Shown: positions 3,091 through 29,174 of the stretch, one piece after another
Layout of the letters: every line of letters starts with the position of its first letter
How positions within the stretch are numbered: position 1 is the first letter of the stretch
Origin: a virus
Reading direction: 5' to 3' (one strand)
IMG/VR virus record: IMGVR_UViG_3300034012_002862
Span: 1-29,204 of that record
DNA: 29,204 bases
Program-made: the position numbers and the translations under genes
The notes under the pieces: model-generated
The model's database searches: none
Seen by the model: only the letters and a program-made list of their open reading frames with translations
What the model was told of the DNA's origin: nothing

Positions 3091-4537
3091 GGGCGAAGGG
3101 GCGGTCGTCGCTGACTTCATTGAATCGTTCTGCAGGCTTTCACGAGGGGACGAAGCGGGGCAGTTGATCAAACTCCGCCCGTGGCAGCGGGAAATCCTAG
3201 AGGAACTCTTCAGGCACCGCGAAGACGGGAAGCGAAAGTACAGGCGCGGCCTGCTCTTGATGCCGCGAAAAAATGGGAAGTCCCTCCTTGCCGCGGGCAT
3301 CGCCCTCTATTCGCTTTTCACAGAAGTCGGTGCGGAAGTCGCCATCGTCGCAGGAGACCGCGCGCAGGCGCGCATCATCTTCAGGGAGTGCGCGCGAATG
3401 GTTGAACTAGACCCGATCCTTAGCAGGAAACTCCACGTGCTCAGGGACGTCATCGAGTACCCCGAGACCGGCAGCGTGCTGCGCGTTTTGTCTTCGGAAG
3501 CCACACGCGCGGAGGGCTACAACTTCAGCACCGTCCTATTTGACGAAATCCACGTCCAGCCCGATGACCGCCTCTGGTCCACCGTCAACCTCGGGAGCGG
3601 CGCGCGAAAGAATCCGCTCGTGCTCGGCATCTCCACAGCGGGCACGAAGACGGACACGCGCGGCCAGGACTCGCTCTGCTACCGCCTCTGGCAATACGGG
3701 AAGCGGCTCGAGAGCGGAGAGTTGGAAGATGACGCCTTCTACTTCCGCTCCTTTACCGCGCCAGATAATCTCGCGTGGGATTCGCCGGAAGCAGCGAAGA
3801 CAGCGAATCCAGCCTACGGGGACTTCCTAGACCCAGAAGACTTCACCGCCGCCGCGCGATCAATCCCGCGCCACGAGTACGAGACAAAGCGCCTATGCCG
3901 CTGGGTTTACTCGGCGGACCCTTACCTTCCAGCGGGAACGTGGGACGCCTGCGAAGCGGAGGGGCTGGAACTCAAGCCAGAGGAACCGATCACGCTCGGC
4001 TTTGACGGCTCCTACGCCGGGGACTCAACGGCCATCGTCGCGTGCAGAATCAGCGATAAGGCGCTCTTCGTTCTCGGCCACTGGGAAAGGGCGATCGACG
4101 GGGACCTTGCGTGGCGCGTTCCGATTGAGGAAGTCGAAGCCCGAATGCTGCAAATCTGCAAAGAGCACGCGGTGCGCGAAATCGTCTGCGACCCGTTCCG
4201 GTGGCAGCGATCAATGGAAGCCTGGGCGCAAGTCGGACTGCCCGTCGTTGAGTTCCCACAGACGCCCGCCAGAATGGTCCCCGCAACGGCGGGCTTCTAT
4301 GATGCGGTCGTCAATAAACAACTCACACACACAGGGGACCCGAGACTCGCCAGGCACGCAGCGAACGCAACGCCCCACTATTCCAGGGGCGGACTAATGG
4401 TCAAAAAGGAAAGCAAAAATAGCCTCAAGCGAATCGACCTCTTGGTCGCTGGGATAATGGCGCACTCGCGCGCTGCTACACTTGGAACCACACCGGGGCC
4501 GCAGCCGAAAGCGGAAGTCAAATGGATCGAATTGTAA
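3026..4537 (+). CDS. terL: Terminase large subunit (packaging ATPase/nuclease)
   Basis: This 503-residue motor pumps DNA into proheads and cuts the concatemer. The N-terminal ATPase carries a Walker A-like MPRKNGKS at 79-86 and Walker B VLFDEIH with D173/E174. The C-terminal RNase H-like nuclease has acidic residues at D327 (GFDGSYAGDST), D389 (VCDPFRW) and D471 (RIDLLVAGIMA), the expected three-metal-ligand pattern. Length and order fit HK97-type terminases. The ATG has an upstream GAGAGGAG. The gene starts inside the small-subunit gene, which suggests coupled synthesis. The DNA-end mechanism (cos or headful) cannot be decided from this sequence. Confidence 0.96.
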   Translation: MGTRTRQRRNSTQSSKPRAGHKGEGAVVADFIESFCRLSRGDEAGQLIKLRPWQREILEELFRHREDGKRKYRRGLLLMPRKNGKSLLAAGIALYSLFTEVGAEVAIVAGDRAQARIIFRECARMVELDPILSRKLHVLRDVIEYPETGSVLRVLSSEATRAEGYNFSTVLFDEIHVQPDDRLWSTVNLGSGARKNPLVLGISTAGTKTDTRGQDSLCYRLWQYGKRLESGELEDDAFYFRSFTAPDNLAWDSPEAAKTANPAYGDFLDPEDFTAAARSIPRHEYETKRLCRWVYSADPYLPAGTWDACEAEGLELKPEEPITLGFDGSYAGDSTAIVACRISDKALFVLGHWERAIDGDLAWRVPIEEVEARMLQICKEHAVREIVCDPFRWQRSMEAWAQVGLPVVEFPQTPARMVPATAGFYDAVVNKQLTHTGDPRLARHAANATPHYSRGGLMVKKESKNSLKRIDLLVAGIMAHSRAATLGTTPGPQPKAEVKWIEL

Positions 4538-4546
4538 GGGAGAACC

Positions 4547-5737
4547 GTGGGACTACTTGACCGCCTGCTCGGACGAACGGAACCACAGGAAGAGCGAACG
4601 ATCGGCGGCCAGTGGTGGTCGCCCGATCCGAACTACGCGGGAGTGCGAGTCACGGAGGAAAACGCTACCAGCATCGGCGCAGTTTACGCCGCCGTAAAAC
4701 TCTACGCGGACACCGTCGCATCGCTTCCGTGGGACACCTACATCCGCATCGATGGAACACGCCGCCCCTACCGCCCGCGCCCATCTTGGATGGATGCACC
4801 GATTCCGAATAACCCGAACTTCACGTCGTTCGAATTCAAGCATCGCGTGACCACCAGCCTGCTCATCGATGGCAACGCGTTCATCCTGGCACTCCGGGAT
4901 AGCAGCGATAACGTCGTCGAGACCCGAGTGCTTGATCCAAAAAAGGTTGAGATCAAGACGGGATCAAACGGGGAACCGCTCTACCACGTCACCACACGCG
5001 AAGGGGGCGCAGTCCTCACCTCCGATGACATCGTCCACATCCCGCTCTTCGCAACAGGAGAGAACCATCGCGGGCTTTCGCCGGTTGAGCACCACGCGGT
5101 AACGCTCGGGCTCGCCAGCGCCACGCAAATCTTCAGCGCAAAGTTCTACCAGAATGGCACCACGCTCGGTGGCGTCGTCAAAGTTCCAGGCGAACTCACG
5201 CAGGAGCAGGCCGAAAGCCTGCGCTCAGGATTCAGCCGCCGCCACGAAGGAGTCGACAAAGCCTGGAAAGTTGCGGTGCTTACAGGCGGCGCGGATTACC
5301 AGCAACTCGGAATGAAGATCAGCGACCTGCAACTGGTCGAGACAATGCACTACGGGGTAGAAGCCATCGCGCGAATCTATGGCGTTCCGCTTCACTTGCT
5401 GCAGTACCCCGGAGGGAACACTTCCTACAGCAGCGTAGAAGTGATCAGCATCGAATGGCTGCGACTCGGACTCGGCCCGCTCATCTCGCGCCTTGAGGCC
5501 GCCTTCCAGCGACTCGTTCCAGGAAGCCAACAGACGTTCCTCAAGTTCACACTTGAAGGGCTGCTGCGCCCGACCACACAGGAGCGCTACAACGCGTACG
5601 CCACTGCGCTGAATAACGGATTCCTCTCTGTCAACGAAGTCAGAGCGCTGGAAGATCGGTCGCCGGTTGACGGCGGCGAAGACTACTGGAAGCCGCTCAA
5701 CATCGGCACGCTTGGCGCAGGAGACCCGCCCGCGTGA
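4547..5737 (+). CDS. Portal protein, HK97 family
   Basis: The 396-residue portal forms the dodecameric ring at the head vertex through which DNA enters and leaves and to which the connector binds. Recognisable parts are the N-terminal GLLDRLLGR, the NATSIGAVYAAVKLYADTVA helix, LLIDGNAFILALRD, a central TSDDIVHIPLFATGENHRGLSP and the C-terminal GVPLHLLQYPGGNTSYSSVE region, all usual for HK97-type portals. It starts with GTG after GGGAGAACC and lies between the large terminase and the protease as expected. Its last codon overlaps the next gene's GTG as GTGA, so the protease fusion is probably made by re-initiation. Confidence 0.94.
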   Translation: MGLLDRLLGRTEPQEERTIGGQWWSPDPNYAGVRVTEENATSIGAVYAAVKLYADTVASLPWDTYIRIDGTRRPYRPRPSWMDAPIPNNPNFTSFEFKHRVTTSLLIDGNAFILALRDSSDNVVETRVLDPKKVEIKTGSNGEPLYHVTTREGGAVLTSDDIVHIPLFATGENHRGLSPVEHHAVTLGLASATQIFSAKFYQNGTTLGGVVKVPGELTQEQAESLRSGFSRRHEGVDKAWKVAVLTGGADYQQLGMKISDLQLVETMHYGVEAIARIYGVPLHLLQYPGGNTSYSSVEVISIEWLRLGLGPLISRLEAAFQRLVPGSQQTFLKFTLEGLLRPTTQERYNAYATALNNGFLSVNEVRALEDRSPVDGGEDYWKPLNIGTLGAGDPPA

Positions 5738-7236
5738 GTTACATCATCACAGACATCGATGGAACGCTGACCACCAGCGGGGACACGCCCAATCAGCCGT
5801 TCATTGACTGGCTCAAGAGTCAGGCAAACGATCACGGCGCGGAAGTGATTATCGTCAGCGCCCGGAGCATTGAGCGACAGGCGGAGACAGAGCGGTGGCT
5901 TAACGAAAACTCAATCCCATACGAGGAAATCTACCTGCAGGACTTCGGGGACGTGAACCCCGCCACGAGCGAAGCCTTCAAAGCCTACAAGTACAGCAAA
6001 CTCCAGGAAGAGTACGGGGACGAAATCGAAATGCTGGTCGATAACGATGCGGAAGCCAGGGACGCAGCGGAGGGAATGGGCATCCCAGCCTATACGCCAG
6101 AGCAGGCCATCGCGCTGACAATTGACGATGAGAGCGATGACGAAATGCGGGTCCTCATTGACGCGCCCGATTACGTCCAGGCCGCTGCAGCGAAGGGGAT
6201 CACCTACTACGAGCAGGGGCTCGCCGGCGACGGACTCCAGCCAGAGACCGTGGAGGAAGCGCGCCAATTGCGAGCAGGGCGAGTGCAGGATGAGAAAGTC
6301 ACACGCCTGCGCGCTTGGATTCTTCGGCACCGCGGAGACTGGGAAGGAGTCGCGCGCAACAGCGACGCGAACGATCCAGACTTTCCAGGACCGGGCGCAG
6401 TTGCGGCATACCTGTGGGGCGTTGATCCCACGAACGAAAACGGGACGGAGCGCGTCCTAGAATGGGCGGACAGAGCGCTCGCTCCGCTTGAAAGCGAAGA
6501 CAGGGAGACCATCGACGTGAAAGAAATCGAGACCCGCGCCTTGCCACTCGGGGACTTCGCCGTCACGGAATCGGAAGACGGCCAGAAGACGTTCACCGGA
6601 TACGCCGCCCTTTTCGGCTCGCCAAGCGCAGGGCTGCCGTTCACAGAAGTCATCGCCCCCGGCGCCTTCAAGCGAACGCTTAGCCGCGTCGCAGGCGGGA
6701 AGAAAATCGTCTCGTTCCTTTTCGGGCACGATGAGACCCGCGCCCTTGCGACCACGCTCAGCGGGCGGCTTGCCCTCAGCGAAGATGATCGCGGGCTCCG
6801 AGTAGAAGCGAAACTAGACCCCGCCGATCCAGACGCCGCGGGAGTGATTAGTAAACTCACCCACGAAGCCGCGGCGATGTCTATGTCTTTCGGCTTCACG
6901 ATTCCAAAAAACGGAGACCAGTGGGACGAAGACGTCCGCACCCTGCGCGAAGTCAACCTCTTTGAAGTCAGCGTGCTAAGCGCGGGCCAGACGCCTGCCT
7001 ATCCTTCCACTCTCGGCTTGACCTCGGTCCGGAAGATCGCGCCACGGATGGGCGTTGACGCGGACCGCCTTATCTCAGCAATCGAGTCCATCAAGTCAGC
7101 GACCCCGCTGACTGAAGCGGACGTCGAAGTGCTCGACACCGTCCGAGAGAGGCTCGGGCCAAAGCCGGAAGCGATCGATCCAACGATCGCAGCCGCCAGG
7201 CTCGTGCTTGCGAAGATGGAGTCGGAAGCGCTCTAA
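5734..7236 (+). CDS. HAD-like phosphatase domain fused to HK97-type prohead protease
   Basis: This 500-residue protein appears to have three parts. Residues 1-125 look like a haloacid dehalogenase-type domain: TDIDGTL at 6-12 with candidate nucleophile D7 and general acid D9, a SARS segment near 42, and VDNDAEARDAAE near 107. Residues about 136-250 form a helical module ending in DFPGPGAVAAYLWGVDP, resembling a domain I associate with phage head proteases. Residues about 262-440 match the HK97 prohead protease (TFTGYAALFGSP, GHDETRAL with H332, MSMSFGFTIP with S383/S385). The protease should cleave scaffold or capsid delta domains in the prohead. The HAD role is unknown; nucleotide or nucleic-acid end phosphatase activity is a guess. 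The start overlaps the portal stop (GTGA). Confidence 0.88.
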   Translation: MSYIITDIDGTLTTSGDTPNQPFIDWLKSQANDHGAEVIIVSARSIERQAETERWLNENSIPYEEIYLQDFGDVNPATSEAFKAYKYSKLQEEYGDEIEMLVDNDAEARDAAEGMGIPAYTPEQAIALTIDDESDDEMRVLIDAPDYVQAAAAKGITYYEQGLAGDGLQPETVEEARQLRAGRVQDEKVTRLRAWILRHRGDWEGVARNSDANDPDFPGPGAVAAYLWGVDPTNENGTERVLEWADRALAPLESEDRETIDVKEIETRALPLGDFAVTESEDGQKTFTGYAALFGSPSAGLPFTEVIAPGAFKRTLSRVAGGKKIVSFLFGHDETRALATTLSGRLALSEDDRGLRVEAKLDPADPDAAGVISKLTHEAAAMSMSFGFTIPKNGDQWDEDVRTLREVNLFEVSVLSAGQTPAYPSTLGLTSVRKIAPRMGVDADRLISAIESIKSATPLTEADVEVLDTVRERLGPKPEAIDPTIAAARLVLAKMESEAL

Positions 7237-7345: not shown

Positions 7346-8500
7346 ATGGCAGACATTCGTAAACTCCACGAGCAGCGCGCAACGGTTCTCACCCAGGCGA
7401 CGTCCATCGTCGCTGAGGCTGCAGAAGCCGGTGCTCCGCTCGAGGGCGAAAAGAAGGCGCAGTTTGATGCGCTCACGGCAGAGGCCGCAGTGCTCAACGA
7501 GACGATCCGCAGCGAGAAGTCCGCAGCAGAGGCGCGAAGCGCCGCTGACTCGGCACGCGCTGAGTTCGCCACGGTGATCGCTCCAGCCGCTGACAAGGAC
7601 CAGGACGAGACCGCGGAACTCCGCGCGCTCGGAAAGAATGGCGGCTCGCGCCTATTCGAGTACCGCGATGTGACACGCGCAACCGGACTCGGGAACCCAG
7701 TGGCGATCGCTGACAGGGTCAACGTCGTCGCCGCTCAGTTCAACCCTTTCCTGGACCCATCAATCATCACGGTTGTGCGCACCGCAACCGGCAATAACAT
7801 CCAGTTCCCACGCGTCACGGCGCTTGGAACCGCTGGCTCAGTTGCTGAAGCGGGCACGATTGGTGAGAGCGACGGAACGCTTAGCGCGCTTTCGCTTACA
7901 CCGATCAAGTACGCCACGATCATCCAAGTTAGCGAGGAACTGGTCGAAGACGCCGTCTTTGATTTGTCCGCGCTAATCGCAGAAAAGTGCGGGGCTGAAG
8001 TCGCAGTCGCTCACGGCGCCTTTGCGGGCACCGCGATTGCTGCATCAGCAACCCTCGGCGTGACCGGTGCGGGAACCACGATTAACCCGACATACACCGA
8101 TCTTGCGAAGTTGAAGGCCTCGGTCAACCAGGCATATCGCCGGGCACCAAAGGCTGGCTGGCTCTGCAATGACACCACGCTCGGCGTGATCACTGGACTC
8201 GTTGATACAACGGGCCAGCCAATCTTCCGACCAGGCGACTCGAATGCGCCTGACCGTTTGCTTGGCGCACCGATCTACAGCGCAGCGCTGATTGATCTCA
8301 CCGATAACACTGCAGGATCAATCCTGTTTGGTGACCTCGGGCAGATTTATACGGCACTCGTCGGGGGCGTCCGCGTTGACGTTTCACGCGAGTACGCCTG
8401 GAACACCGGCCTTGTTTCGTACAAGGTCGAAGTTCGCGGCGCCACTGGCCTGGCTCAGACCACGGCAGTGAAGTCGTTCAAGAGCGCAGACGTCGCCTAA
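7346..8500 (+). CDS. Major capsid protein, HK97 fold
   Basis: This 384-residue protein is the shell subunit. Residues about 1-95 form an alanine- and glutamate-rich helical region (ADIRKLHEQRATVLTQ onward) typical of the delta or scaffold domain removed by the prohead protease. Afterwards come NPFLDPSIITVVRTATGNN, VAEAGTIGESDGTLSALSL, PIKYATIIQVSEELVEDA and a C-terminal GVRVDVSREYAWNTGLVSYKVEVR, the usual HK97-fold landmarks. I chose ATG 7346 because of the strong AAAAAGGAG just upstream and because the protein then starts with a standard delta-domain helix. It is followed by a strong terminator-like hairpin. The cleavage site is not identifiable with certainty. Confidence 0.95.
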   Translation: MADIRKLHEQRATVLTQATSIVAEAAEAGAPLEGEKKAQFDALTAEAAVLNETIRSEKSAAEARSAADSARAEFATVIAPAADKDQDETAELRALGKNGGSRLFEYRDVTRATGLGNPVAIADRVNVVAAQFNPFLDPSIITVVRTATGNNIQFPRVTALGTAGSVAEAGTIGESDGTLSALSLTPIKYATIIQVSEELVEDAVFDLSALIAEKCGAEVAVAHGAFAGTAIAASATLGVTGAGTTINPTYTDLAKLKASVNQAYRRAPKAGWLCNDTTLGVITGLVDTTGQPIFRPGDSNAPDRLLGAPIYSAALIDLTDNTAGSILFGDLGQIYTALVGGVRVDVSREYAWNTGLVSYKVEVRGATGLAQTTAVKSFKSADVA

Positions 8501-23641: not shown

Positions 23642-24123
23642 GGGTCACACTTTCAGACTCTGAACTTCAACAGGCCAGAGAGCGCGGACAGCGACTCAAG
23701 GAAGCGAATGCCCACACGAAGGACACGCCTGCCTACAGCGACCAGAGTAAAAAGATCTACCAGGATGAAGCGGACGCAGGATTCGTGATGTCGGTCGCGG
23801 AATGCGCAGTCGCTAAAGCGACGGACCGGGAATGGCACGCGAAAGTGTGGCCAGCCTCGGAGCACCACCTCCACAAGGATGAACCGGACGTCGGACGGAA
23901 CATCGAAGTGCGCCACGTCACGCAGCCATCGGGCGGGCTCGTCGTTCGGCGGAAGGACCTCGGGAAGGGAAAGGTTCTCTTCCTCGCCTACCCCGATCCA
24001 GCGACGGACTACCGCGAAGTTGAAGTCATCGGCTGGCTCACCGCGGAAGACGCCTGGGAGCAGGGGAAAGACGTCGGAGACTACCGGCGCGTTCCACAGT
24101 TCCAACTGACGGAACTCCCGTGA
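23638..24123 (+). CDS. Hypothetical protein, possible PD-(D/E)XK-like fold
   Basis: A 161-residue protein. The segment DVGRNIEVRHVTQPSGGLVVRRKDLGKGKVLFLAY, followed by VEVIGWLTAEDAW, occurs in my memory of unassigned phage proteins with the D...ExR/K-strand layout of restriction-type nucleases (residues about 85-125), with a helical N terminus including EADAGFVMSVAECAVAKAT. Active-site assignment is uncertain because the ExK-type position is E-V-R. It is linked by ATGA to the winged-helix gene and by GTGA to the dNMP kinase. Confidence 0.55.
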   Translation: MRVTLSDSELQQARERGQRLKEANAHTKDTPAYSDQSKKIYQDEADAGFVMSVAECAVAKATDREWHAKVWPASEHHLHKDEPDVGRNIEVRHVTQPSGGLVVRRKDLGKGKVLFLAYPDPATDYREVEVIGWLTAEDAWEQGKDVGDYRRVPQFQLTELP

Positions 24124-24683
24124 GCAGGAGCGTCGCGTTCCTCGGACCACAGGGAAGCGGGAAGAGCACAATCGCCGCGCTCTTCGTTGAGCACCGCGGC
24201 TACCAGCGACACGGAATCGCGGACGCAATAAAAAACGTCGCAGGGATGGCGTACCCGGACCTGACGAAGACGGAGACCATCGTGCTTGATCGCTACAGCG
24301 GCCAGACGGTGATCACAGGGCGGGAACTCCTGCAGGACATCGGCGCCGCGCTGCGATCGGTTGATCCAAAGTTCTGGCTGCGCGTTTGGCGCCGCGATTA
24401 CTTCCAAATCCAAAGCCACGGCTACGGCGTCGTGATCGATGACGTCAGGCTCGACGCCGAAGTCGCCTACCTTCGGGCCGTTGACCCGGCGATCTATATC
24501 GTCGGACTTCACGCGGACGAAGCCACACGGAGCACAAGACTGGGAGGGCCACTCAAGGGGACCAGCGACGTCACGGAGAGGGGCTGGACTAAAGCGGGGC
24601 TCGACCTTATCCTCGACACATCGGGGATGACCCCCGAGGAAGCCTACAGGCGGATCACGGATGGGATGGAGGAAGCCGGATGA
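24120..24683 (+). CDS. Deoxynucleoside monophosphate kinase
   Basis: A 187-residue kinase. P-loop GPQGSGKST at 9-17, then HGIADAIKNVAG, TGRELLQDIGAALRSVDPKFW and VVIDDVRLDAEVAYLRA, a set typical of phage dNMP kinases (T4 gene 1-like), which turn dNMPs, including those released from host DNA, into dNDPs for replication. Starts with GTG in a GTGA overlap. Supports the nucleotide supply for this small phage that has no visible polymerase. Confidence 0.85.
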   Translation: MSRSVAFLGPQGSGKSTIAALFVEHRGYQRHGIADAIKNVAGMAYPDLTKTETIVLDRYSGQTVITGRELLQDIGAALRSVDPKFWLRVWRRDYFQIQSHGYGVVIDDVRLDAEVAYLRAVDPAIYIVGLHADEATRSTRLGGPLKGTSDVTERGWTKAGLDLILDTSGMTPEEAYRRITDGMEEAG

Positions 24684-27929: not shown

Positions 27930-29174
27930 ATGGCTCGCATCGCCTGGTATTCCAACGCCTGCCATATCCCGAGTGGTTACGGTGCACAAAGTGCACAGGT
28001 CGTCCACCGGATGGTCAAAGACGGACACGAAGCCGCCATCGCAGCGAATCACGGCGCGCCAGTTCTTCTCAACTGCGCGCACGGGCATCCAATTCTTCCT
28101 GAAGGATTGCTGCGGTACAGCATCGACTCAGCGCCAGACGCGATGCAGGAGTGGATCGGAGACGGACCAGGATATGGCGTGGTCCTCTTTGATCTTTGGC
28201 CGCTCGTTGGCATTGAGGGATTCAAAAGACTCAACCTCGCCTGCTGGACCCCGGTGGATCACGCGCCGGCGCCCACCCTCGTCGCCAAGTTCATCCAAGA
28301 CGGAGAGCACGTGGCAATTGCGATGTCGCGCTTCGGTGAAGAGCAGTTGCGCAACGCAGGGATTCCAGAGGAGCGGCTCACCTACATCCCGCACGCTATC
28401 GACCGCAACACGTTCAAGGATCTCGGAAAGGGCCAGAAGACGGCGATGGGGATACCAGAAGACGCCTACCTTGTCGTTACCGTCGCAGCCAATCGCGGAC
28501 GCATTCCAGTGCGAAAGGGCTTCGGGGAAATGGCTGACGCAATGGCAGCGTTTATGAAAGACCGCCCAGACGTCTACTGGATGATCCACACGGAACCGAA
28601 CGGGCACAGCGAAGGGGTCAACATCCCACGCTTGATCAACGCGGTGGGAATTGATCCGCAACGAGTGCGCTACCCGCACCCGCGCCACTTCCGCAACGGC
28701 ATACCAGACACGGCACTCGCCGCAATGTATTCAAGCGCGAGCGCTCACCTACTCACATCGATGGGAGAGGGCTTCGGCATCCCGGTCGTTGAGGGCCAAG
28801 CCTGCGGCACGCCCGCAATCGTTTCAGACTTTAGCGCGCAACCGGAACTGCTCGGGCCGCACGGGAAGCGCGTGAAAGTCCAGCGCGTGTGGGACGAATA
28901 TCAGGCGTCCTTCTTTGGCATCCCGAACGTTGAGGGGATCAAGGCGGCGCTGCAGGAACTCTACGAGGAGACGAAGGGAGGGGGGGTAGACCGCGCGGCG
29001 GTCGCCAAGTCAATGGAGCGATACGACGCTGAGACCGTCTACCAGGAAGGATGGCGCCCACTCACGGAGCGGATGCTGGCACGAGGAAAGACACGAAGCC
29101 CAGGCACGAGGGAAGACACGCCTGCCCCAGTGAACAGAGCGGCACGCAGGGCTGCCGCACGGGGAGGGCGGTAG
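27930..29174 (+). CDS. GT4-family glycosyltransferase
   Basis: A 414-residue GT-B enzyme. The N-terminal fold begins ARIAWYSNACHIPSGYGAQS, with the acceptor side around residues 1-165; the C-terminal nucleotide-sugar site carries the GEGFGIPVVEGQACGTPAIVSD motif at about 285-306. RLTYIPHAIDRNTF is another usual element. It transfers sugars from an activated donor, for example to DNA bases, virion proteins or surface glycans; the acceptor is unknown. The end has a basic extension with NRAARRAAARGG, recalling short phage nucleic-acid-interacting tails. ATG follows AGGAGAAAGAGGGGG. Internal repeat GTGCACAAAGTGCAC at 27982-27996 encodes A-Q-S-A-Q. Confidence 0.9.
   Translation: MARIAWYSNACHIPSGYGAQSAQVVHRMVKDGHEAAIAANHGAPVLLNCAHGHPILPEGLLRYSIDSAPDAMQEWIGDGPGYGVVLFDLWPLVGIEGFKRLNLACWTPVDHAPAPTLVAKFIQDGEHVAIAMSRFGEEQLRNAGIPEERLTYIPHAIDRNTFKDLGKGQKTAMGIPEDAYLVVTVAANRGRIPVRKGFGEMADAMAAFMKDRPDVYWMIHTEPNGHSEGVNIPRLINAVGIDPQRVRYPHPRHFRNGIPDTALAAMYSSASAHLLTSMGEGFGIPVVEGQACGTPAIVSDFSAQPELLGPHGKRVKVQRVWDEYQASFFGIPNVEGIKAALQELYEETKGGGVDRAAVAKSMERYDAETVYQEGWRPLTERMLARGKTRSPGTREDTPAPVNRAARRAAARGGR

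Follow-up and report, generated by a model that had tools for sequence, protein, structure and literature searches.

Is an HAD-like domain at the very front of a phage prohead protease a genuine part of that protein and, if so, what might it be doing there? The question is raised by a gene lying between those of the portal and the major capsid protein in the window (i.e., the whole stretch of 29,204 nucleotides analysed here, positions 1 to 29,204 of IMG/VR virus record IMGVR_UViG_3300034012_002862; Table 1). Head-maturation proteases are usually viewed as single-purpose assembly enzymes. The initial annotation, made from the letters alone, had described a continuous reading frame whose start is set by its overlap (GTGA) with the portal gene, both of which are indeed seen in the sequence, and had divided the product into an N-terminal HAD layout (TDIDGTL with D7 and D9, a SAR segment and VDND), on which profiles, the structure model and conserved residues now agree, a helical module, which stands as a separate part, and a protease with H332 and S383/S385, of which H332 and S385 turned out to be invariant in relatives but S383 did not.

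Table 1. Features of the window and of related loci (residues are those of the protease ORF product; positions are those of the window).
Feature	Position, sequence or difference	Strand	Basis or remark
Portal gene	4547..5737	+	phrog_12, 6e-93; GTGA overlap with protease ORF start
AGGAG, probable ribosome-binding site	5719..5723	+	10 nt upstream of GTG, within portal gene end; read directly
Prohead protease ORF with HAD front end	5734-7236	+	GTG start, 500 aa, single continuous frame
HAD domain (predicted), residues 1-130	5734..6123	+	PHROG_415, structure model, Foldseek, motif conservation
HAD motif I, D7/D9 in TDIDGTL	5752-5760	+	Sequence
HAD motif II, S42/R44 in SAR	5857-5865	+	Sequence
HAD motif III, K83	5980-5982	+	Sequence
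HAD motif IV, D103 in VDND (also D105)	6040-6042	+	Sequence
Acidic linker, residues 131-140	6124..6153	+	Low model confidence
Middle helical module, residues 141-260	6154..6513	+	No named family; helices in model
HK97-type prohead protease (S78), core residues 277-427	6520..7233	+	Pfam, TIGR01543, invariant residues
Catalytic H332	6727-6729	+	Invariant in relatives
Catalytic S385 (SFGF)	6886-6888	+	Invariant in relatives
Major capsid protein gene	7346..8500	+	phrog_10, 2e-51
Deoxynucleoside monophosphate kinase	24120-24683		Pfam DNMK 1.2e-9, phrog_139 7e-25
Module A	'MPYFVTD...GWATVK' ('YFVTD' module)		Sequence
Module B	Four-Cys, HiPIP-like		Weak Pfam match 0.0036, below cut-off
Module C	DUF5824		7.7e-9
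Module D	DUF3721		3.1e-7 in L226
Window vs. L033	HAD replaced by 2 kb ending in module A		Flanks 86 and 85% DNA identity
L020 vs. L054	HAD vs. A-B		Colinear both sides
L144 vs. L143	Module C inserted in linker		Sides 97 and 95%
L142 vs. L134	Module B inserted		Colinear both sides
L122 vs. L140	Module A added before HAD		Colinear both sides
L032 vs. L077	A-HAD vs. A-B		Sides 81 and 86%

The protease core matches both Peptidase_S78 (2.7e-29, 102.8 bits vs. a cut-off of 21) and TIGR01543 (3.2e-25, 89 bits vs. a cut-off of 59). The profile search matched no Pfam or NCBIfam family to the middle module and returned a weak PHROG_2859 match, the module also being present in Pontimonas phage phiPsal1. 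In relatives, the acidic linker ahead of the middle module accommodates insertions of module B, C or D. The full-length structure model was poor in the protease part (pTM 0.32) and was left out of the conclusions on that part. Near the protease C-terminus, L030 (7474-7842) and L031 carry ~120 additional residues with no Pfam match, which makes this region a second site where the protein takes up sequence.

Scans of IMG/VR yielded 289 loci with a related protease, 157 of which are distinct in the protease region (the cultured phiPsal1 included), and in about 130 of these 157 the HAD domain is in frame with the protease within one ORF; in five contigs, HAD is joined to a protease for which the middle module was not detected. 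A frameshift, or homologues having the domain as a separate gene, had been named at the outset as an observation that would speak against a fusion, and no such case was seen beside any protease in the loci examined, which rules out these accounts. The production of an HAD-less protease from an internal start was rejected as well: start codons with a Shine-Dalgarno sequence near residue 138 are not conserved (L005, L036 and L150 have no start codon there at all), nor was any conserved internal start of this kind found between HAD and the middle module in the relatives. The window is a single metagenomic contig, and so an error of sequencing or assembly, or an accidental join, might be suspected; the probability of this, however, is practically negligible, as the identical fusion recurs in ~130 distinct sequences from many metagenomes and is under purifying selection. 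That the HAD-protease fusion is real, and more than chance, is confirmed.

As to what the fused domain is, the profile hits of residues 1-130 include PHROG_415 (“polynucleotide kinase”, 7e-14) and Pfam Hydrolase_3 (7e-5, above the curated cut-off). The structure prediction proposed in the initial annotation found the HAD Rossmann-like fold: the AlphaFold2 model, built from an alignment of 22 relatives, is compact and confident (pLDDT 91, pTM 0.84), and a Foldseek search against the PDB matched it to solved HAD phosphatases, i.e., Pnkp1 (4xrp, E 6e-6), the T4 Pnkp 3'-phosphatase (5uj0; TM 0.77 by query and 0.72 by target, rmsd 2.3), lipin/Pah and Nir2. The domain is capless, its modelled secondary structure and its length leaving no space for a cap domain; capless HADs usually act on large substrates, e.g., nucleic-acid ends or phosphoproteins. 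Five residues, D7, D9, S42, R44 and D70, never vary among 75 distinct HAD domains of the relatives, the most distant pair of which is 34% identical; K83 and D103 are kept in 74 of them, and position 104 is occupied by N in 67 domains and by D in the other 8. Median dN/dS values (HAD, 0.11; middle module, 0.16; protease, 0.09; synonymous sites are close to saturation in many of the pairs) indicate that the HAD domain is under purifying selection. Conserved catalytic residues and low dN/dS together favour a working enzyme, most likely a Mg2+-dependent phosphatase as far as activity can be predicted from sequence; a counter-point to this is the N104 of motif IV in most members, where polynucleotide kinase/phosphatases (PNKPs) have Asp.

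Going by the model and the profiles, the predicted domain is closest to the 3'-phosphatase of PNKP, and yet it is not classed as one: when it is aligned with the PNKPs of four phages, it proves to lack the RxPFD/RxPYD loop with its Arg that follows motif I, and motif IV reads DND (DD in a minority) instead of DDR. The HAD_PNKP profile score also falls just under its cut-off (24.3 vs. 27.6 bits, 3.7e-5), and there is no 5'-kinase domain on the chain, for which Pfam shows HAD and S78 domains only. The nearest structures and profiles being nucleic-acid 3'-phosphatases, the domain could be imagined as a cytoplasmic phosphatase that acts earlier than head assembly or independently of it (e.g., on nucleic-acid ends), the fusion merely tying its expression to the late genes, and stand-alone small HAD proteins do occur in uncultured phages. 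We nevertheless find this doubtful, as HAD is never a separate gene adjoining the protease in the loci examined, no polynucleotide kinase or ligase partner was seen among the window proteins scanned, and a low-copy protease would seem a poor vehicle for a cytoplasmic enzyme.

The relatives are most telling in what they carry at the HAD position. The front ends found on related proteases, always in frame, are HAD, modules A, B, C or D, or combinations of these (HAD-B, HAD-C, HAD-D, HAD-D-C, A-HAD, A-B, A-B-C and A-C-B), and colinear genome pairs (81-97% DNA identity) differ in the N-terminal stretch only (Table 1). HAD presence changes at least nine times on the protease tree, albeit a quick one with a long outgroup branch, and four independent changes fall on well-supported branches in a 46-row subset. 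The protease N-terminus is thus, by these sequence comparisons, an exchangeable cassette in this group of uncultured tailed phages, of which HAD is one of several occupants, and, as relatives live without it, HAD is dispensable or replaceable. No HAD was found elsewhere in the four records of genomes with an HAD-less protease, a weak result from a search with no positive control. In L033, ~2 kb (4021-6020) at the HAD position have no DNA similarity to the window and end in module A, and, since the long open frame ahead of that module looks non-coding in its frame, another gene may have arrived with the swap.

We know of no enzymatic role for the modules that replace HAD. That unrelated modules replace each other could mean that they are all non-enzymatic, i.e., domains that serve the folding, targeting or spacing of the protease and for which several folds suffice, and targeting to the prohead core is among the roles of head-protein propeptides (PMC10052503). 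This appears rather unlikely to us, given that the HAD catalytic residues, needless for a spacer, are invariant over a wide divergence, and that the capsid scaffold (delta) region (the first ~100 residues of the major capsid protein, assigned by position) is unchanged whichever module is present. In the swap pairs measured, the identity of this region is 94-100%, and hence there is no matching of module to scaffold; an apparent pairwise association between cassette and scaffold followed the clade structure, in a comparison with four independent pairs on supported branches, which are too few for a test.

What we consider somewhat probable, on balance, is an HK97-type protease with an exchangeable N-terminal cassette, in which HAD is an accessory enzyme, competent in catalysis, that the protease carries along and plausibly brings into the prohead; phosphatase activity, prohead entry and release by self-cleavage are all three what we infer. 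As HAD is synthesised at the front of the protease chain, it would go where the protease goes, each copy travelling with it, in a small number, to the assembling prohead, where it could be freed, or else lost, upon self-digestion of the protease, the acidic linker being the most plausible point of cleavage. Cleaved head-protein propeptides are generally expected to exit the head (PMC10052503), and HAD may therefore act at or ahead of maturation rather than in the virion. A bolder and distinctly tentative extension is that the protease serves as a carrier: phages would fit its N-terminus with interchangeable small enzymes (e.g., the HAD phosphatase or the HiPIP-like redox module), and the few copies packed into the head and released by self-cleavage would act in the maturing head or enter the next cell together with the ejected DNA.

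Elsewhere in the window, a complete-looking S-adenosylmethionine synthetase gene with three Pfam domains (2-1180) is directly followed by a DNA N6/N4 methyltransferase gene (1156-2604) upstream of the terminase, and this adjacency suggests that the phage carries its own methyl-donor supply. A glycosyltransferase-like gene was recognised by eye at the window end (27930-29174), unlike the glycosyltransferases of phiPsal1, which are among the head genes; defence-system profiles gave no match.

Neither the fusion nor its domain arrangement was found described in the open-access literature searched; a study of phage domain mosaicism connects HAD domains with replication but makes no mention of proteases (PMC10684548). 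The HAD matches listed from 50,697 phage records are polynucleotide kinases, related enzymes and unannotated genes, with no protease among them, and in bacterial genomes only six remote proteases were found, their N-termini being without HAD. In BFVD, on the other hand, HAD-like folds are present in “prohead protease” proteins of distant uncultured phages (23-60% identity; entries include A0A6J5R419, A0A6J5S5M9 and A0A6J7WPK9), as well as in one XkdF-like protein (A0A6J7WLI9), and thus the association of HAD with head proteases seems to recur beyond this lineage, judging by fold matches in entries known by automatic names. The parts (an HK97-type protease and an HAD domain) are known; what is new, as far as that literature goes, is their combination and the exchangeable N-terminus.

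In Roseobacter phage CRP-823 (L309 3153-6081), the middle module occurs together with DUF5824 in a gene that has the portal on one side and a protease-capsid fusion on the other, and that gene overlaps, in another frame, the next one, which fuses an S78 protease to a capsid protein, both being annotated as “major capsid protein”. A programmed frameshift at the overlap is possible, and the arrangement implies a wider association of these two modules with head genes.

The significance of all this is that a protease bears what looks like an intact enzyme, and bears it where its relatives change the sequence repeatedly with the scaffold and portal genes untouched, which makes it testable whether phages load proteins into heads via the protease and may provide a natural handle for capsid cargo loading. 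It further shows that names assigned automatically (“prohead protease”, “polynucleotide kinase”) can mask such fusions.

Set against known systems, the window protein shares with HK97-family prohead proteases (Peptidase_S78, TIGR01543, PHROG_80) the catalytic His and Ser, the protease domain and the terminase-portal-protease-capsid gene order, and adds to these an N-terminal HAD, the middle module and an exchangeable N-terminus. With T4-type PNKP 3'-phosphatases (5uj0; Pnkp1, 4xrp) its HAD domain has the fold, motifs I-III and the absence of a cap in common, whereas the kinase domain, the RxPFD Arg loop and DDR are found in the former only, the latter having DND. The BFVD “prohead protease” entries, which bear automatic names only, contain an HAD-like fold as the window protein does, one of them being A0A6J5R419 (“Prohead protease [uncultured Caudovirales phage]”, UniProt/BFVD; 501 aa, 60% identity in the HAD domain). 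Finally, the prohead protease of phiPsal1 (MG835450), the sole cultured relative found to match the middle module along its length, aligns over residues 139-474 (middle module and protease, 39% identity), but its N-terminus is A-B (YFVTD and the four-Cys HiPIP-like module), where the window protein has HAD.
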